From a virus, in the IMG/VR virus record IMGVR_UViG_3300022745_000141, positions 1 to 24,542 of that record: DNA of 24,542 nt, one strand, 5' to 3'. Under the pieces are notes generated by a model. That model did no database searches, was not told the DNA's origin, and was given only the letters and a program-made list of their open reading frames with translations. Positions 9,228 through 24,542 of this stretch are shown in pieces; the stretch's first letter is position 1, and each line of letters begins with the position of its first letter. Both the position numbers and the translations under genes were made by a program.

Positions 9228-11728
9228 TATTTAATTCCTAATTGTTGTCTTGCTGCTGCCCATTTTGGATTATTTTTATTAGCCGGATCCATGGCCCAAG
9301 CTTTTATATTGTTTAATTTTTGTCTATCAATACCCATGGCATTTTCTTGGAATAATTTAGGATCAATCTGATACTGCTCTAAAGTTGGATAAGACACTCT
9401 TGGACTTGCATAATCCTCTAATTGTTTTCTTCTTAGAGCCCGATCTTCTGGAGAATCAGTTTTACCAGGTTTAAATTGCTCCATTAGTTTTTTATTTTCT
9501 TCTGGGTTAAATCTTCCAGTTAATTCTTTATTCAGCTCAGCAATAGCTGCATTAAGCTGACTTTCTTGAGCGCCTGAAAAGGCTCGTTGAGGATGTGCTA
9601 AAGCATAACCAGGGGTTTGAACTTTATTTACCATATCCCACGCTTTTAAAACTTGAATGCGTTTATGTGCCAGATCAGCCGCTTTTGCAGCCTCTTCTCT
9701 AGCCTTTGCTTGATCATGGGCTGGGATAGTATTTAGCAATAAAGCAGGATTGGCACCTTGTTTTACTGCTCCTTGAATTTGTTCTTTAATCTGCAATGGG
9801 CGCGTAATTTGATCGGTTTGCATCTGCCATTTGCCAAGCTCTTGTTGAAGACGAGCTTTAGCCATTGGGTCTTTCGCGTTAGCAATTGCTTCTTGCATTT
9901 TTAATCCAGCAATATCACGAGCATTTGCAATGGTCATGATACGGGCATCTCTTAAATTGCCCATTTCTCTAAGATTATCATCAAGCATACTTTTCTTTTT
10001 ACCTAGGTCGATCTCTTGGGATCTAACATCGTTTTCAATTGCTTGATTAAGATATTTAGCAGCAGCGTTTTCTTGGTGAGTAAGGCCGGATCCAATACCT
10101 CCTAAGATAAGCCCAATAGAAGTAGCAATTTTTTGCCCAGTTCCCATATTGTGAAATAATCTGTTGGCATCAACGTGACCATTTGCGTAGTCAGCCATCA
10201 AAGCTTGTCTTCGTTCTTGGATTGGTTTTAATTGCTCTTGGTAGTCTTTATTGGCTTGCTCAATCTGCCCCATTTGTTCATGGGCAATGTCGGCTTCTTG
10301 TTCTCCAAGACCTCCTTGAACACCGGCCTCTAATTTAAGTCCTTTTTGATATTGATCAGAACCAGGCATCTGTCCAAGGCCTGGGCTAGGACTAGGTATG
10401 GAAGGAGCCTGCCCTGCTCCTTGTTGCATTTGTAGTTCAGCGCCTTGAGCAGGATTAGCCGCATATTTAGCATTAATAGCGTCTTCTTCTGCCTTATCCG
10501 TTACATCAAGCTGCTTCTTAATTGCATCAGTAGCAGCTAAAGTTGGCCCAGCTCCGATAATATTAGCTCCAGTTGCAATAGCCAATTCTTGTGGGGTCAT
10601 TTGAGAAGCGTCTGGCCTTCCAGTCATTGTTGTGGTTAACCAATCTGGAAGTGGATTTTTAGATTCTTTAACTGGGTCTTTTAGAGATAAATCTGGAGCT
10701 TCTTGAGGGGCTTCTTCAACGCCTACCTCCATCCCACCTTTATAAAAATTAGACTTAGGATCTACTTTTTTTTTTGACATTACTTGCTTAACAAATTCAG
10801 CCGCGCCTTTTACAGGGTCATCGCCTTGCATAACATGACGAGGGATAACAACTTCGCCAGGAGATAGCATCGCTGGAACTGTGTCGTTAGAATAGCTGTC
10901 ACCGTGAACTTTAGCCTTACCTGGAACTGATCCGCCTTCTTTCATTCCACAAATTCTCTGAGCGATAGAAGAAGATGGCCCATCAATCATACCGCCTTTG
11001 GCTTTTGCTTGAGGCATCATAGATGCTCCCAAAACAGTACCAGCTCCTCCAAGCAAACCACCAATGATACCATTTTGTGCTTGTTGATTGCCTGCTGCAA
11101 CTCCTGCATTAATTTGATTAATGCCTAGTTGGTTCTGATTCTGAGAATTGATCGCGCTCTGGGCTAGGCCTTGTTGACCTTGTGCAAATTGATTGGCTCC
11201 GCTTAAAGCACCGGCTTGCTGTCCTACTTGTTGACCGGCTAATTGTGCCATCTGAGCCTGTTGGTTCTGCAACTGCTGTTGAGCTGCCAACTGTTGTTGT
11301 GCTCGCATAATCGCAGCTTGTCCTGTGGCTTGCTGTTGAAGCGCTCCGCCTTGCATCGCTGCTTGACGCGCTAAAAGACCGGCATTAGCTCCGGCACCAC
11401 GTTGTGAGGCCATAAGAGCTGCTTGGTTCTGTGCGTTTTGACCTGTGGTCTGAGCTAACTGTGCAAGAGCAGGATTAGGGCCCTGTCCTTGAGCTTGTTG
11501 TCCTAATTGATTAGCTAAGGCTTGTTGTTGAGCAAATACATTAGATTGATTGCCAATACCGCCTTGAGCTTGGAGTGCTTGAGCAAAAGCCATTTGTTTA
11601 GCTAGGGCATCCTGGCCCTGACCGTATGCTTGACCAAAGTTAGAGCCCAAATTAGCAGGATTGACAAATTTTGATTGATCTACCTTGAAATCATTATTTG
11701 CGCCTAAAAGACCACCTAAAAAACCCAT
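9227..11728 (-). CDS. Large internal virion / ejection protein, Gln-Ala-Gly-rich, 833 aa
   Basis: It begins MGFLGGLLGANN. Residues about 30-230 are extremely rich in Gln, Ala and Gly, predicted as long helix or coiled coil. A hydrophobic glycine segment (GIIGGLLGGAGTVLGASMM) lies near 220-240. Next comes a motif seen in many phage ejection or tail-associated proteins: GGM, GGSVPGKAKVHGDSYSNDTV and then PAMLSPGEVVIPRHVM. The C-terminal half is charged helix with a second Gln/Pro patch. The AGGAG ribosome binding site is well placed. Together with the 914-aa protein it likely travels inside the capsid and is ejected with the DNA. No enzymatic domain is visible. Confidence 0.7.
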   Translation of the reverse strand: MGFLGGLLGANNDFKVDQSKFVNPANLGSNFGQAYGQGQDALAKQMAFAQALQAQGGIGNQSNVFAQQQALANQLGQQAQGQGPNPALAQLAQTTGQNAQNQAALMASQRGAGANAGLLARQAAMQGGALQQQATGQAAIMRAQQQLAAQQQLQNQQAQMAQLAGQQVGQQAGALSGANQFAQGQQGLAQSAINSQNQNQLGINQINAGVAAGNQQAQNGIIGGLLGGAGTVLGASMMPQAKAKGGMIDGPSSSIAQRICGMKEGGSVPGKAKVHGDSYSNDTVPAMLSPGEVVIPRHVMQGDDPVKGAAEFVKQVMSKKKVDPKSNFYKGGMEVGVEEAPQEAPDLSLKDPVKESKNPLPDWLTTTMTGRPDASQMTPQELAIATGANIIGAGPTLAATDAIKKQLDVTDKAEEDAINAKYAANPAQGAELQMQQGAGQAPSIPSPSPGLGQMPGSDQYQKGLKLEAGVQGGLGEQEADIAHEQMGQIEQANKDYQEQLKPIQERRQALMADYANGHVDANRLFHNMGTGQKIATSIGLILGGIGSGLTHQENAAAKYLNQAIENDVRSQEIDLGKKKSMLDDNLREMGNLRDARIMTIANARDIAGLKMQEAIANAKDPMAKARLQQELGKWQMQTDQITRPLQIKEQIQGAVKQGANPALLLNTIPAHDQAKAREEAAKAADLAHKRIQVLKAWDMVNKVQTPGYALAHPQRAFSGAQESQLNAAIAELNKELTGRFNPEENKKLMEQFKPGKTDSPEDRALRRKQLEDYASPRVSYPTLEQYQIDPKLFQENAMGIDRQKLNNIKAWAMDPANKNNPKWAAARQQLGIK

Positions 11729-17148: not shown

Positions 17149-18258
17149 TTATTGGCTGAGTTGAACAACTGCGTTCCAGCCTGGAGCATTACAGATCAAG
17201 TTACCGTAGTAACCGATACGAATTTCCAGAGCGTCGGCATTGCCAACACGTAGACCTTCAAGACCTTCCAGTCCGTAGGTTAATACGTGAGGAGCTTTGC
17301 CGAGTGATCGCAATTTCAATGTGCTCATGCTTAACAAGTAAGCAACTTGCGCAGGGCAAGAACGATCAGGAACGATAGTGATGGGCCCATAAGGAGCATG
17401 AATACGGATACCAGCAAAAGCGATATCAGCCTCTTCATGCTTCACATCAACGTATTGCACTTTGGCGCCCAATGATTTCTCAAGAGCCGCATAGGATGCA
17501 AAGTTAATGAAGCACATATCGGGTTCTCCGCCTTCACGAGCAACAAGTGAAGCAGCGTCAATAAGAGCTTCTTCAATTGTTTCACTCGATCCATCGTAAC
17601 GAACGCCAGCCAAACGTGTAACATCAGCAGAGCGATCAACGCCCCAGAATGAGTCACCGCTTGAAGGAGCAGTTACAGGCAACCAAGCAGCAAGGCCTGA
17701 TACCTTGAGAGCGAGAGCGGTAGCCAAGCCACCTGATGCGAAGCTAACGTCACCTTGCACAGCAAGTTTCGAGAAGCTTGTAGACCAGTTGCTAGGAGTA
17801 CCAGCAGAACCGCCTTGTGAAGTAGAAACAGTCAATGTACCAGCAGTACGGTTAACTGCGATAACATAACCAACGGCAGCGCCGGTTGATTGTGTAGCAG
17901 TTGTTCCTGATACGCTGTAGGAAACAAGTGACATACCAACTTCAAAGTTAACGATTTCAGCAGGCTGGGTAAGAGTAATAACGCCAGTAGAAATACTGGA
18001 GATAGTACCGCGTGAACCAGTGCCATCGCCAAACAAATCATGTGCCAAGTCGTTAGAAATGTTTCTAAAGCCTGTGTCCATGTTAAGTTTAGCTTCATCG
18101 ACGAACGCGCCAGCGTCGTCTTTGGTAGCTTCAAGCAATTCGTTCGTGATAGTTACTAATTGATAGTTGCTAACACGGTAAACGAAGAACGAAGCCAATA
18201 CAGGAGCGGTTTGGTTACCTTGAGCAGAGCTAAAGGTTGCCGAACGTCCTTGGGGAGT
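17149..18258 (-). CDS. Major capsid protein, exon 3 (main body, 369 codons)
   Basis: Main body of the capsid protein. The frame begins at ACT 18258 directly after the intron's terminal G (TPQGRSATF, then QGNQTAP and ASFFVYRVSNYQLVTITNEL) and ends GYYGNLICNAPGWNAVVQL. The frame has no proper start: an apparent one at 18198 is a TTG inside the protein. Joined to 19154-19069 and 19034-18941 it gives a continuous 429-aa protein (86+94+1110 nt, in frame). Sequence and position after scaffold identify an HK97-fold capsid protein of the type found in short-tailed phages. Residues such as TNELLEATKDDAGAFVDEA correspond to the spine-helix region. A terminator follows 22 nt after the stop. Expression requires removal of both insertions. 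Confidence 0.88.
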   Translation of the reverse strand, partial: TPQGRSATFSSAQGNQTAPVLASFFVYRVSNYQLVTITNELLEATKDDAGAFVDEAKLNMDTGFRNISNDLAHDLFGDGTGSRGTISSISTGVITLTQPAEIVNFEVGMSLVSYSVSGTTATQSTGAAVGYVIAVNRTAGTLTVSTSQGGSAGTPSNWSTSFSKLAVQGDVSFASGGLATALALKVSGLAAWLPVTAPSSGDSFWGVDRSADVTRLAGVRYDGSSETIEEALIDAASLVAREGGEPDMCFINFASYAALEKSLGAKVQYVDVKHEEADIAFAGIRIHAPYGPITIVPDRSCPAQVAYLLSMSTLKLRSLGKAPHVLTYGLEGLEGLRVGNADALEIRIGYYGNLICNAPGWNAVVQLSQ

Positions 18259-18300
18259 CGGTGCCCAAATGGGCTTGTTATCCTAAAGGCTTTTTATCCC

Positions 18301-18777
18301 TTAGTTCTTATACTTCCTGAGATAGTTCAAGGTTTTTTCGACAATCTGTTCATTGTCCTTTAAGAGACCCAATCCCCTATTACAGGTATCACATAAAAAG
18401 CCACGCATTTTACCTGTTTTATGATCATGGTCTATTGCTATTCTGCGATTCATCTTTGTGTGATGAAGTCCACATATTTCACAACAATTACCACGCTCAT
18501 TTAACAGTTCATCAAACTCTTCAACGCTCAACTTGATGCCTGCGCGATTCTTCGTAACAGAAAGTCTTTTTTTGTTCTTTTCTCGGAACGACTTTCTTTG
18601 GGCTCTTATTTTATCCTTGAACTTAACTCTGTATTCATTGCTTTTGACGTTGTCACAGAGCTTACAGTAAACACCGAATCCATCCGGACTAACTGTTCTT
18701 TTATAAAACTCTTTAACATCTTTAGTTTCTCCACAATGAGCACACTTCTTTAGTATAAGTTCAGCGTACATTTTCAT
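18301..18777 (-). CDS. Intron-encoded endonuclease VII/HNH-family protein (homing endonuclease candidate)
   Basis: 158 aa. An N-terminal zinc site is formed by C12, C15, C38 and C41 (CAHC and YCKLC), a basic linker spans about 50-80, then comes a recombination endonuclease VII domain. Its zinc cysteines are C99, C102, C129 and C132 (CEIC and CDTC), the catalytic DHDH is at 116-119 and N133 follows in CNRGLGLLKD. Such proteins nick or cut DNA and, inside introns, drive homing into intron-less alleles. The ORF lies wholly within the group I intron. There is no Shine-Dalgarno sequence at its ATG. A 7-bp hairpin, ACATTTT/AAAATGT, folds over the start region, and an extended -10-like TGTTATAAT (18792-18784) lies just upstream. 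Confidence 0.88.
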   Translation of the reverse strand: MKMYAELILKKCAHCGETKDVKEFYKRTVSPDGFGVYCKLCDNVKSNEYRVKFKDKIRAQRKSFREKNKKRLSVTKNRAGIKLSVEEFDELLNERGNCCEICGLHHTKMNRRIAIDHDHKTGKMRGFLCDTCNRGLGLLKDNEQIVEKTLNYLRKYKN

Positions 18778-18783
18778 TCTGTA

Positions 18784-18798
18784 ATTATAACAAAATGT
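18784..18798 (-). promoter_or_regulatory. Extended -10-like element and start-codon hairpin of the intron ORF
   Basis: TGTTATAAT at 18792-18784 matches the sigma70 extended -10 exactly, without a clear -35. Its predicted start point falls near the ORF's ATG. ACATTTT (18798-18792) can pair with AAAATGT (18774-18768), which spans the region just after the start codon. An RNA starting upstream (the capsid mRNA) would contain the hairpin, while one starting at this promoter would not. Phage T4 intron endonucleases use a similar separation, which makes this worth noting, but it is only a motif match. Confidence 0.3.
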
Positions 18799-18940
18799 CG
18801 GGCACTCTTGCCAGAATTATATTCTCTTTCGAGGTTCATCTGGTACGCGTTACGGTGTCTAAAGTTTTTACACTTTAAATTACCACGGTATTCCCATCTC
18901 AGGGTTCACCGTATTTACCCGATTTAACTATGGCATCCCT

Positions 18941-19034
18941 ACCATAGACCAAGGGAACTGGAATGTATTTTCCAGCGAAACCACTTGGGCTCTCGTCTTT
19001 TGGAACGAGTGCCAAAAATGGATTCTTCTTGTAG
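18941..19034 (-). CDS. Major capsid protein, exon 2 (94 nt)
   Basis: It encodes, once joined, the capsid N-arm segment YKKNPFLALVPKDESPSG and then FAGKYIPVPLVYG. The exon supplies the last base of a split Val codon (GT|C) at its 5' end and finishes with a complete Gly codon (GGT) at 18941, directly before the intron. The same protein segments are contiguous in related capsid proteins, as I know the family. It is too short to stand out as an ORF. It contains CTTGGTCTA (18952-18944), a 9-nt copy of the sequence created when exons 1 and 2 are joined. Confidence 0.85.
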
Positions 19035-19068
19035 CGATTTCCCTTAGTAGAACTTGGCCTACAAATTA
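19035..19068 (-). other. 34-nt intron-like insertion with perfect P1/P10 guide but no catalytic core
   Basis: It lies between capsid exons 1 and 2 and puts a TAG three codons into the insertion, with a +1 frame change. The exon end ACTTGGT (19075-19069) pairs with GCCAAGT (19058-19052), closing with a U.G pair exactly at the junction. TTGTAG (19064-19059), just 5' of that guide, pairs with CTACAA at the start of exon 2 (19034-19029). The insertion ends in G (19035). These are the group I rules for P1, P10 and terminal G. Removal gives DLV^YKK in frame. Only 34 nt remain, so no P3-P9 core can be present. It may be a remnant, a substrate for the nearby intron's ribozyme, or a collapsed assembly. 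Confidence 0.7.
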
Positions 19069-19154
19069 ACCAAGTCTTTCATAAAGTCATCACCAACATA
19101 CAACTCTTTGAGAGCTGCAATCTGGTTAGACGCATTTGCGTAAATAGCTGCCAT
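19069..19154 (-). CDS. Major capsid protein, exon 1 (start of the gene)
   Basis: The capsid protein begins at ATG 19154 with MAAIYANASNQIAALKEL, then YVGDDFMKDL and two bases of a Val codon. An AAAGGAAAA ribosome binding site lies 5 nt upstream. Read without excision, the frame hits TAG at 19061-19059 after only 31 codons. The peptide is the expected N-terminus of the capsid family, and it is 65 nt downstream of the scaffold stop, the standard place. Exon length (86 nt) leaves a split codon that exon 2 completes. Confidence 0.85.
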
Positions 19155-22867: not shown

Positions 22868-24295
22868 CTAAGTGTCGATAAAGCCCTTCTCGGCATCCTC
22901 TAAAGCCTCAAAATGCTTAACAGCTTCCTCTTCCATTCGTTTGACTTCATATTCATGAAACTCAGGCGTGCCCCATTTATGAACAACGGGAAGTCTATCA
23001 GTCAACACAGGCCTGCTCATTAGTCCCATTCGGATCATGTCATAGGCATCATCGCCTGTCTCGGGGTTCCCCTCAACCGCATCTTCCTTAAGCACGTCCT
23101 CAATCCTATTAGGATCGTGCTGCATACGGGTTAAACAATCAAATGATATAGGACAGGTGTCGAATATAAAGAATCTAGGCTTAACTCTGCCAGTGGGAAG
23201 ATCCTGCCAAGCTAGATAGTTTCTAACTTGTGAGGCTCCTTGGATACGATCAATGACGGCTCTCTTAAGCCATATCTCATGCTTTTGAAACTCTTCTGCA
23301 ATAGTTGGCGGTGTTCCCTCAGTTAGGATACCTTTCTTAGCCCAGCAGTCATGTCCTGCCACTATAGGTGTTAGAAGTTTAGTATCCTCGAATGCGTTTA
23401 CTCGCTTAGCGAACTGATCAATGCGCTGCCCAGCCATAACAAGCTCGCGATAAAGGTATACGTTGCCATCCTCGTCAGTGGCAAACCAACCAAAAGCGGC
23501 TGGGTGGTTGTAACCAAAGTCATAAGCACCAAAACGATTCCAGTGAGGGGGAATAGGAAACGGCTTAATGAGATGGATTTCTCTTCGTATTTCACTAAAA
23601 AACTGGCCAGCAAAAATATCCCAATCGCCATAGCGATAAGCTCTTCTAAGTGTCTCGTTGGGTTCTGACTCAAGCCTATGAACATAATCTGGGTCGTTTA
23701 CTAGGAGGGCCTTGTTGTCGTCAACGAGGGCCTGAATAAATGAATAATCACTAGGTCTTTCTCTGTCGTTGAATCTTCTCTCAATGAATATACGCTTGAG
23801 CCATTTATGACCAATGCCTCCAGGATTTCCTGTAAGGATAGTCCTTGCTTTAATGCCAGTCTTAGAAGATCGGTTGGAACCTTGGAGGGTGCGGAACATT
23901 TGCTCAGTCCATTGACCGGCTTCATCAATTGCAAGGTCATGGAACTCCCGTCCTTGATAGAGCGATATATCCTGCTCGTTAGAACAGTGGCAAAACTGCA
24001 ACGTAGAGCCGTTAGGCAGAGAAAGTAGTTTCTTCCCCTCATTCCAATACGGGCGTAGAGATGGGAATTCTTCAAGAAGTGGTCTGATATGATTGCCTTC
24101 AAGTTCTGGATAGGTTCTTCGGAATATGGCACCATACGAACCGGGATACTCGAAGCGTCTAAGGAGCATGATAAGCCTGAGCCCTTTTGATTTACCTCCG
24201 CCACGAGCCCCTCCGTACAGTATTGTTGAATAATCTTCTATAGCTTTTCTAAATTGATGTTGTTTGGGTTGCAAAGCTATTTTTAGCTCTATCAC
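22868..24295 (-). CDS. terL: Terminase large subunit (packaging ATPase and nuclease)
   Basis: 475 aa. The ATPase domain carries Walker A GGARGGGKS (residues 28-36), Walker B LAIDEA with D124 and E125, and the coupling motif LTGNPGG (154-160). The C-terminal RNase H-like nuclease is marked by D259 in YDFGYN, D316 in AGHDCW, and the acidic end DDAYD (D415, D416, D419). All expected catalytic residues are present, so it should be functional. It starts with GTG at 24295, overlapping the HNH gene's TGA by four bases. It would form the motor docking on the portal encoded downstream. No small terminase subunit is visible in the window. Confidence 0.95.
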   Translation of the reverse strand: MIELKIALQPKQHQFRKAIEDYSTILYGGARGGGKSKGLRLIMLLRRFEYPGSYGAIFRRTYPELEGNHIRPLLEEFPSLRPYWNEGKKLLSLPNGSTLQFCHCSNEQDISLYQGREFHDLAIDEAGQWTEQMFRTLQGSNRSSKTGIKARTILTGNPGGIGHKWLKRIFIERRFNDRERPSDYSFIQALVDDNKALLVNDPDYVHRLESEPNETLRRAYRYGDWDIFAGQFFSEIRREIHLIKPFPIPPHWNRFGAYDFGYNHPAAFGWFATDEDGNVYLYRELVMAGQRIDQFAKRVNAFEDTKLLTPIVAGHDCWAKKGILTEGTPPTIAEEFQKHEIWLKRAVIDRIQGASQVRNYLAWQDLPTGRVKPRFFIFDTCPISFDCLTRMQHDPNRIEDVLKEDAVEGNPETGDDAYDMIRMGLMSRPVLTDRLPVVHKWGTPEFHEYEVKRMEEEAVKHFEALEDAEKGFIDT

Positions 24296-24542
24296 TTTCT
24301 ATGTCTTTCTTTGTTGCAAATTTTACACCATCTGCCGCCATTACAATTAATACCAGTATTTTCTTTTGTAAATTCGTGGCCGTACTTACAATGTGTTTTA
24401 ATTTTATTAGTCGCGCCAACCGATTTGCTGTTTTCTATGGTGTTTACATACTGAGTGACCTGCCTGAGGTGCTTGGGATTAACGCAAGACCTGTTTCTAC
24501 ATTTGTGGTCAATGACCAACTCTGGGTCTAGTTTTTCAACCA
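24292..24542 (-). CDS. HNH endonuclease, C-terminal part (start beyond the window)
   Basis: The frame is open to the window edge, so the N-terminus is missing. An internal TTG at 24519 is not the start; upstream codons read EKLDPELVIDH. The visible part contains the HNH core DHKCRNRSCVNPKHLRQVT (HNH_3-like; the His and Asn residues present), then a C-terminal zinc-finger-like module with Cys-x-x-x-x-His, then CKIC and a basic end NKERHRK. HNH proteins beside terminases can either help packaging-site cleavage or be free-standing homing endonucleases. The zinc-module version fits the latter slightly better. The stop overlaps the terminase start (GTGA). Confidence 0.85.
   Translation of the reverse strand, partial: VEKLDPELVIDHKCRNRSCVNPKHLRQVTQYVNTIENSKSVGATNKIKTHCKYGHEFTKENTGINCNGGRWCKICNKERHRK

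Follow-up and report, generated by a model that had tools for sequence, protein, structure and literature searches.

The window examined here is a 24,542-nucleotide stretch of viral DNA (IMG/VR record IMGVR_UViG_3300022745_000141, positions 1 to 24,542), and it carries on its minus strand, from an ATG at 19154, an SU10-like major capsid gene (SU10_MCP, PF17236) with two interruptions, one of 34 nt that follows codon 28 (19068-19035) and, 94 nt further downstream, a 682-nt group I intron (18940-18259). The shorter interruption, and others like it that we refer to as mini-introns, are the subject of this report. A first-pass annotation had described the 34-nt segment as a stop-containing insert with group I boundaries and no catalytic core, and reading of the minus strand together with homology to relatives confirms the insertion. 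Excision of both segments yields a 429-residue protein collinear with its relatives in an alignment of homologous capsid genes, including across the DLV-YKK junction, so that the restoration of frame claimed earlier also stands.

Table 1. Features of the interrupted capsid gene and its two introns.
Feature	Coordinates	Strand	Details
Capsid exon 1	19069..19154	-	86 nt, ends GACTTGGT
P1a 5' strand	19069..19075	-	ACTTGGT; U.G at splice point
Core-less mini-intron	19035..19068	-	TAATTTGTAGGCCAAGTTCTACTAAGGGAAATCG, 34 nt, in-frame stop, terminal G
P10 guide	19059..19064	-	TTGTAG; complementary to CTACAA (19034-19029)
P1a 3' strand (internal guide sequence)	19052..19058	-	GCCAAGT; pairs with ACTTGGT
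Tail guide	19039..19048	-	ACTAAGGGAA; pairs with TTCCCTTGGT of exon 2 (18957-18948); duplex -13.2 kcal/mol
Capsid exon 2	18941..19034	-	94 nt, begins CTACAAGAAG at 19034
Tail-guide target	18948..18957	-	TTCCCTTGGT; directly adjoins P1b (CTATGGT)
P1b 5' strand of full intron	18941..18947	-	CTATGGT; pairs with IGS2
Full group I intron, proposed core donor	18259..18940	-	682 nt; RF00028 E=0.013, below gathering score
IGS2 of full intron	18934-18928	-	GCCATAG; within the 682-nt intron
P3 of full intron	18922-18917/18803-18798	-	covaries in 15 introns
P4 of full intron	18911-18907/18890-18886	-	covaries in 15 introns
P7 of full intron	18848-18844/18768-18764	-	covaries in 15 introns
Endonuclease_7 (PF02945) HNH open reading frame, intron-encoded	18301..18777	-	158 aa
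Capsid exon 3	17149..18258	-	SU10_MCP, PF17236

The other boundary features noted earlier are likewise all present: P1 between the end of exon 1 and the internal guide sequence (IGS), with a U.G pair at the splice point, P10 between the insert and the start of exon 2, and a terminal G. A search of the 34-nt insert against Rfam gave no match, and the insert and its counterparts described below contain no catalytic core (P3-P8 with a G-binding P7) because 30-59 nt leave no room for one. The first-pass annotation did not include two further observations, a tail guide helix that names a partner intron and a strict co-occurrence with a full intron downstream.

Searches of IMG/VR provided 146 distinct homologous capsid genes, in which inserts were located by spliced alignment from homology only, blind to RNA pairing. 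Twenty-one of these genes contain 23 distinct inserts of 30-59 nt at approximately eight sites, mostly within the first 50 codons, and nearly all of the inserts introduce stops or a frameshift; L262 is a 22nd insert-bearing gene, with an insert of 6 nt. The window's exact site is also occupied by a 33-nt insert in L279, which lies on the contig of L002, and by full introns in L283 and L169, whose IGS is compensated (TATAG-GCCAAAT versus TTGTAG-GCCAAGT in the window). An exact-sequence search of viral contigs for the window's insert recovered the contig of L002 only, and no mini-introns were found in neighbouring genes of the same loci. No relatives of the capsid gene were found in genome contigs or, by protein search, in cultured phages, and there is therefore no cultured example.

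All 23 mini-introns have a T (U) before the insert, a terminal G, a P1 formed with the IGS that places a U.G pair at the 5' splice site, and a P10 of 5-7 bp with their own 3' exon. The mean P1 plus P10 score is 12.2, versus 5.5 with exons exchanged between sites and 6.2 with shuffled inserts. Some of the exchanges pair mini-introns that occupy one site but are numbered on different templates, an effect that can only make the null higher. If homology left the junction free to move by 1-2 bases, the position with the best pairing is reported, and the nulls had the same freedom. Irregularities are one T-T mismatch in P1 of two mini-introns (that of L194 and the q45.2 one of L260), a one-nucleotide exon bulge shared by the four q30.1 mini-introns, and one spacer base between P10 and P1 in L184 (q45.2). 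Compensatory changes are seen at position 7 of P1a and at positions 2, 3 and 5 of P10a. As a detector by itself the P1/P10 rule was rejected as too permissive, matching 23 times in 1.4 Mb of loci on both strands versus 18 times in the reversed sequence. Because such matches are common by chance, the pattern proves little on its own, and the case is argued from the relatives; its force comes from its position exactly at a homology-defined insertion and its recurrence at every other mini-intron.

Three explanations had been offered at first: that the phage relies on a second ribozyme of that transcript, that the intron has decayed, or that reads of a longer intron were collapsed. The full introns that L283 and L169 carry at the window's site make deletion from full to mini plausible as an origin, but that the insert is an unremoved deletion remnant or an assembly error is very unlikely, since the 23 distinct sequences come from many independent metagenomes and maintain P1, P10 and the tail helix through compensatory changes. 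Leaving a stop in the capsid gene would, moreover, presumably be lethal.

The tail, which is the stretch from the IGS to the terminal G, pairs with exon sequence downstream. In approximately 21 of the 23 mini-introns this helix, of 6-13 bp, ends where the P1 of a full intron starts, at a distance of 6-9 nt (mostly 7 or 8) upstream of that intron's 5' splice site. Among 15 site combinations, ten of the unconstrained best helices end at 7 or 8 nt versus 0.89 expected (P approximately 1.6e-10). Third codon positions of the exon vary within the q45.2 family and the tail follows them (G-C/A-U, U-A/A-U and A-U/G-C), giving compensatory changes between tail and exon 2 at helix positions 3, 6 and 9. 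The tail of L246 (TGTTCGTGAT) forms ten Watson-Crick pairs with ATCACGAACA 1115 nt downstream, passing over a nearer full intron of 782 nt to a target that adjoins P1 of a 202-nt intron, and the two mini-introns of L260 have guides to two different full introns. The longer q45.2 mini-introns of L193, L235 and L213 have an extra small tail hairpin whose stems differ (CAGG/CCTG, ACTA/TAGT and CAAG/CTTG), which suggests a selected spacer hairpin. Matching at P9.0 between the 3' ends of mini-introns and partners, compared by eye, followed no clear rule.

Mini-introns were found only in genes that also have a full intron: 22 capsid genes have both, five a full intron only, none a mini-intron only and 109 neither (Fisher test 6e-21, uncorrected for relatedness), and the full intron always lies downstream of the mini-intron. 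The arrangement in L262 is GCTGGT / TAACTG / AAATATATACCGGT / AGATGGAT-GCCGG...GTATTT-GCCAGCG-core, where the 6-nt intron is TAACTG. The IGS and P10 guide that would serve it (GTATTT-GCCAGCG) belong to the downstream full intron, where they take the usual place of an IGS ahead of the core, and the full intron uses a second IGS of its own further 5'. This appears to be a natural arrangement in which, by anatomy alone, one core would serve two splices, and it is the main reason why we name the partner's core as the catalyst.

We weighed three other ways in which such an insert could be dealt with. In the first, the mini-intron is an autonomous tiny group I intron that splices itself, perhaps helped by folded exons, in the manner of the PaSSU introns of Phialophora small-subunit ribosomal RNA genes; these small putative or degenerate group I introns of 63-75 nt are reported to be autonomous, and splicing, both in vivo and in vitro, is reported for short introns with P1, P10 and a pairing between mid-intron and 3' exon (PMC3160393). 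The PaSSU introns have a P7-like helix, end in U, and occupy an rRNA gene, mostly at one site and in one clade (PMC3160393), whereas the mini-introns have no room for a P7, all end in G and, unlike PaSSU, carry a guide to the P1 of a second intron. Self-splicing would leave both this guide, which usually targets the P1 of a full intron and once passes over a nearer one, and the absence of any gene with a mini-intron and no full intron unexplained, and the L262 intron has 6 nt and an IGS that lies in the full intron. We consider it unlikely.

A second alternative is that a different trans-acting ribozyme or a protein removes the mini-intron and that the tail helix is regulatory, for example in ordering two splicing events; stacking of the tail on P1b could delay splicing of the full intron, and the assignment of catalysis to the partner's core is itself read from sequence. 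However, L262 puts the IGS of the mini-intron on the partner's core, the phage with two mini-introns uses two partners, and a mini-intron is never found without a partner, all of which makes this alternative quite improbable.

The third is translational bypassing, in which ribosomes would hop over the insert. The known case is T4 gene 60, a phage gene whose brief untranslated segment, with a hairpin, a stop codon and matched codons, is passed over without splicing. A P1 hairpin does lie near the stop, and a codon before the stop matches one that lies two codons before exon 2 in the window (AAT..AAT) and in L279 (AAA..AAA), yet matched take-off and landing codons are absent in L191, L212, L196, L246, L169, L175, L202 and L183, so that most of the mini-introns, unlike T4 gene 60, do not have the required pair, and by this codon test bypassing was rejected. 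Bypassing would not account for P10, the terminal G, the tail guide or the link with the downstream full intron, and its product would contain extra residues that the relatives do not have; we consider it very unlikely. The codon match at 19066-19030 of the window and in L279, both at the same site, is a chance mimic of a take-off and landing pair.

Of the explanations first offered, another ribozyme in the same transcript is strongly favoured, and we consider it very probable that the 34-nt insert is a satellite, or guided mini-, intron that would be spliced by the core of the full intron to which it is guided. The mini-intron would bring the cis parts of the substrate, namely the 5' splice-site helix P1a, the 3'-exon helix P10a and the terminal G, but no core, and its tail would pair with the exon segment adjoining the P1 of a complete group I intron that lies further downstream on the transcript, putting P1a beside the partner's core. 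The strand order would be exon 1, P1a, P10a guide, IGS1, tail, G, exon 2 (with the tail target and P1b), IGS2 and core. The tail helix and P1b have an unbroken exon strand in common and can stack, perhaps with the tail helix in place of a P2, with the base of P1a next to the junction into the core. With exogenous guanosine triphosphate, the partner's core would then remove both the mini-intron and itself, one ribozyme serving two introns. What can be seen in the sequence is the exact insertion, P1, P10 and the terminal G with the compensatory changes in the helices, the tail helix in its constant register, the strict co-occurrence and the intact, covarying core of the partners, whereas the splicing itself, the partner's core as its agent, the order of events and the stacking are our inference.

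Such a topology would be close to that of an ordinary group I intron, in which P1, P2 and the core follow in this order, with the difference that the 3' splice site would lie in the P2 loop, and it is supported by the absence of an own P2 from 19 of 20 partner type-A introns, versus two of eight non-partners in the capsid gene (Fisher 5e-4). P2-less introns also occur in unrelated genes with no known mini-intron, and by reading the sequence a P2 is seen in the q53 partner of L300, and for these reasons the loss of P2 is kept as a side inference only. The P2-less type-A intron at 2965-3682 of L200, with no mini-intron found upstream, could have an unseen partner or be a counter-example to the P2 idea.

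The proposed core donor has the features of a group I intron, with P1 and its IGS, a P3/P7 pseudoknot and P4-P5. Across 15 aligned type-A introns, comprising 14 partners and the downstream intron of L196, a possible partner, P3, P4, P5 and P7 covary with 95% of cells paired, and the covariation score of 0.44 compares with 0.14 for shuffled and at most 0.11 for slid alignments.

In an out-of-sample test, a rule combining P1, P10, the terminal G, the tail guide and an open frame was applied to 149 type-A cores, and returned six capsid matches, with L362 outside the first set, and one weak match elsewhere. Spliced alignment of newly fetched capsid genes, with the last splice positions read by eye, revealed mini-introns in L300 (two), L304, L362 and L391, each followed downstream by a full intron, and full introns only in L390, L410 and L411. 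One of the L300 mini-introns (10571-10617) lies near the 3' end of the capsid gene and has a guide (AGTTGAGCA with TGCTCAGCT) to a C-terminal type-B intron of approximately 205 nt; the system is therefore not limited to the N-terminal region.

Several observations weigh against a shared core. The system is read here from DNA sequence, its cases are so far confined to one capsid gene family of uncultivated phages, and related phages are non-independent samples. No convincing tail helix is present at the expected place in L196 or for the first mini-intron of L184 (q28.0), that of L183 is imperfect, the tail duplex of L391 is weak (-4.7 kcal/mol), and P10 of L304 has 4 bp only. Rfam did not score the short L283 intron or the approximately 205-nt type-B partners as group I, and these are classed by boundary rules, shared sequence and P7-like ACGACTA/ATAGTC motifs.

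Group I cores acting on a P1 that is not their own are familiar from engineered trans-splicing ribozymes and from P1 hairpins given in trans; the mini-introns differ in being apparently natural, within one transcript and equipped with an evolved guide helix. Euglena group III and degenerate group II introns no longer have their core and need machinery supplied in trans, but these have group II chemistry and no guide to a named partner intron. Group I introns in phage structural genes, such as the LittleE capsid gene and the BAKA tail gene, are 265-820 nt long (PMC3706429); the mini-introns share with them the U at the 3' end of exon 1, the terminal G and residence in phage structural genes including a major capsid gene, but at 30-59 nt have no room for a core. 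In the open-licence PMC literature we met no naturally occurring core-less group I intron that uses the core of another intron, an absence that is no proof, and natural guided core-less group I introns would appear to be a new kind of element, whose proposed chemistry is ordinary group I.

L333, L335 and L367 each contain two type-A cores approximately 270-290 nt apart on one contig, as tandem short introns without room for an open reading frame, and are possible further cases of core sharing. Type-A introns in L415, L423, L425 and L435, judged from the upstream sequence, are apparently in tRNA genes of Bacilli metagenome-assembled genomes, and cores related to the type-A introns are present in cultured cyanobacteria and Metabacillus arenae. 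In the window itself an HNH_3 endonuclease open reading frame (24292-24540, minus strand) is truncated at the edge of the contig, immediately upstream of the terminase gene, and may be part of another intron or a free-standing homing nuclease.

Given the full introns at the window's site in relatives, the mini-introns probably arose by loss of the core once the core of a neighbour could serve. Dependence on a helper core would make the helper intron hard to lose, whether by selection (addiction) or as a ratchet. It is possible, although we put this forward only tentatively, that non-autonomous group I introns parasitise the core of a neighbour and, because an essential capsid gene is made dependent on that core, lock a homing-endonuclease intron into the phage as an RNA-splicing addiction pair that spreads by co-conversion. 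As a practical consequence, gene callers will break essential phage genes at the mini-intron inserts. Group I introns have so far been defined by carrying their own core; if the proposed sharing is true, mini-introns are splice sites and guides only, and together with their partners form a natural guide-addressed ribozyme. They would then be a group I counterpart of the proposed descent of spliceosomal introns from self-splicing introns, with guide, substrate and catalyst all readable from the DNA, and the old problem of how autonomy is lost by introns would become open to direct test with an RNA of a few hundred nucleotides.
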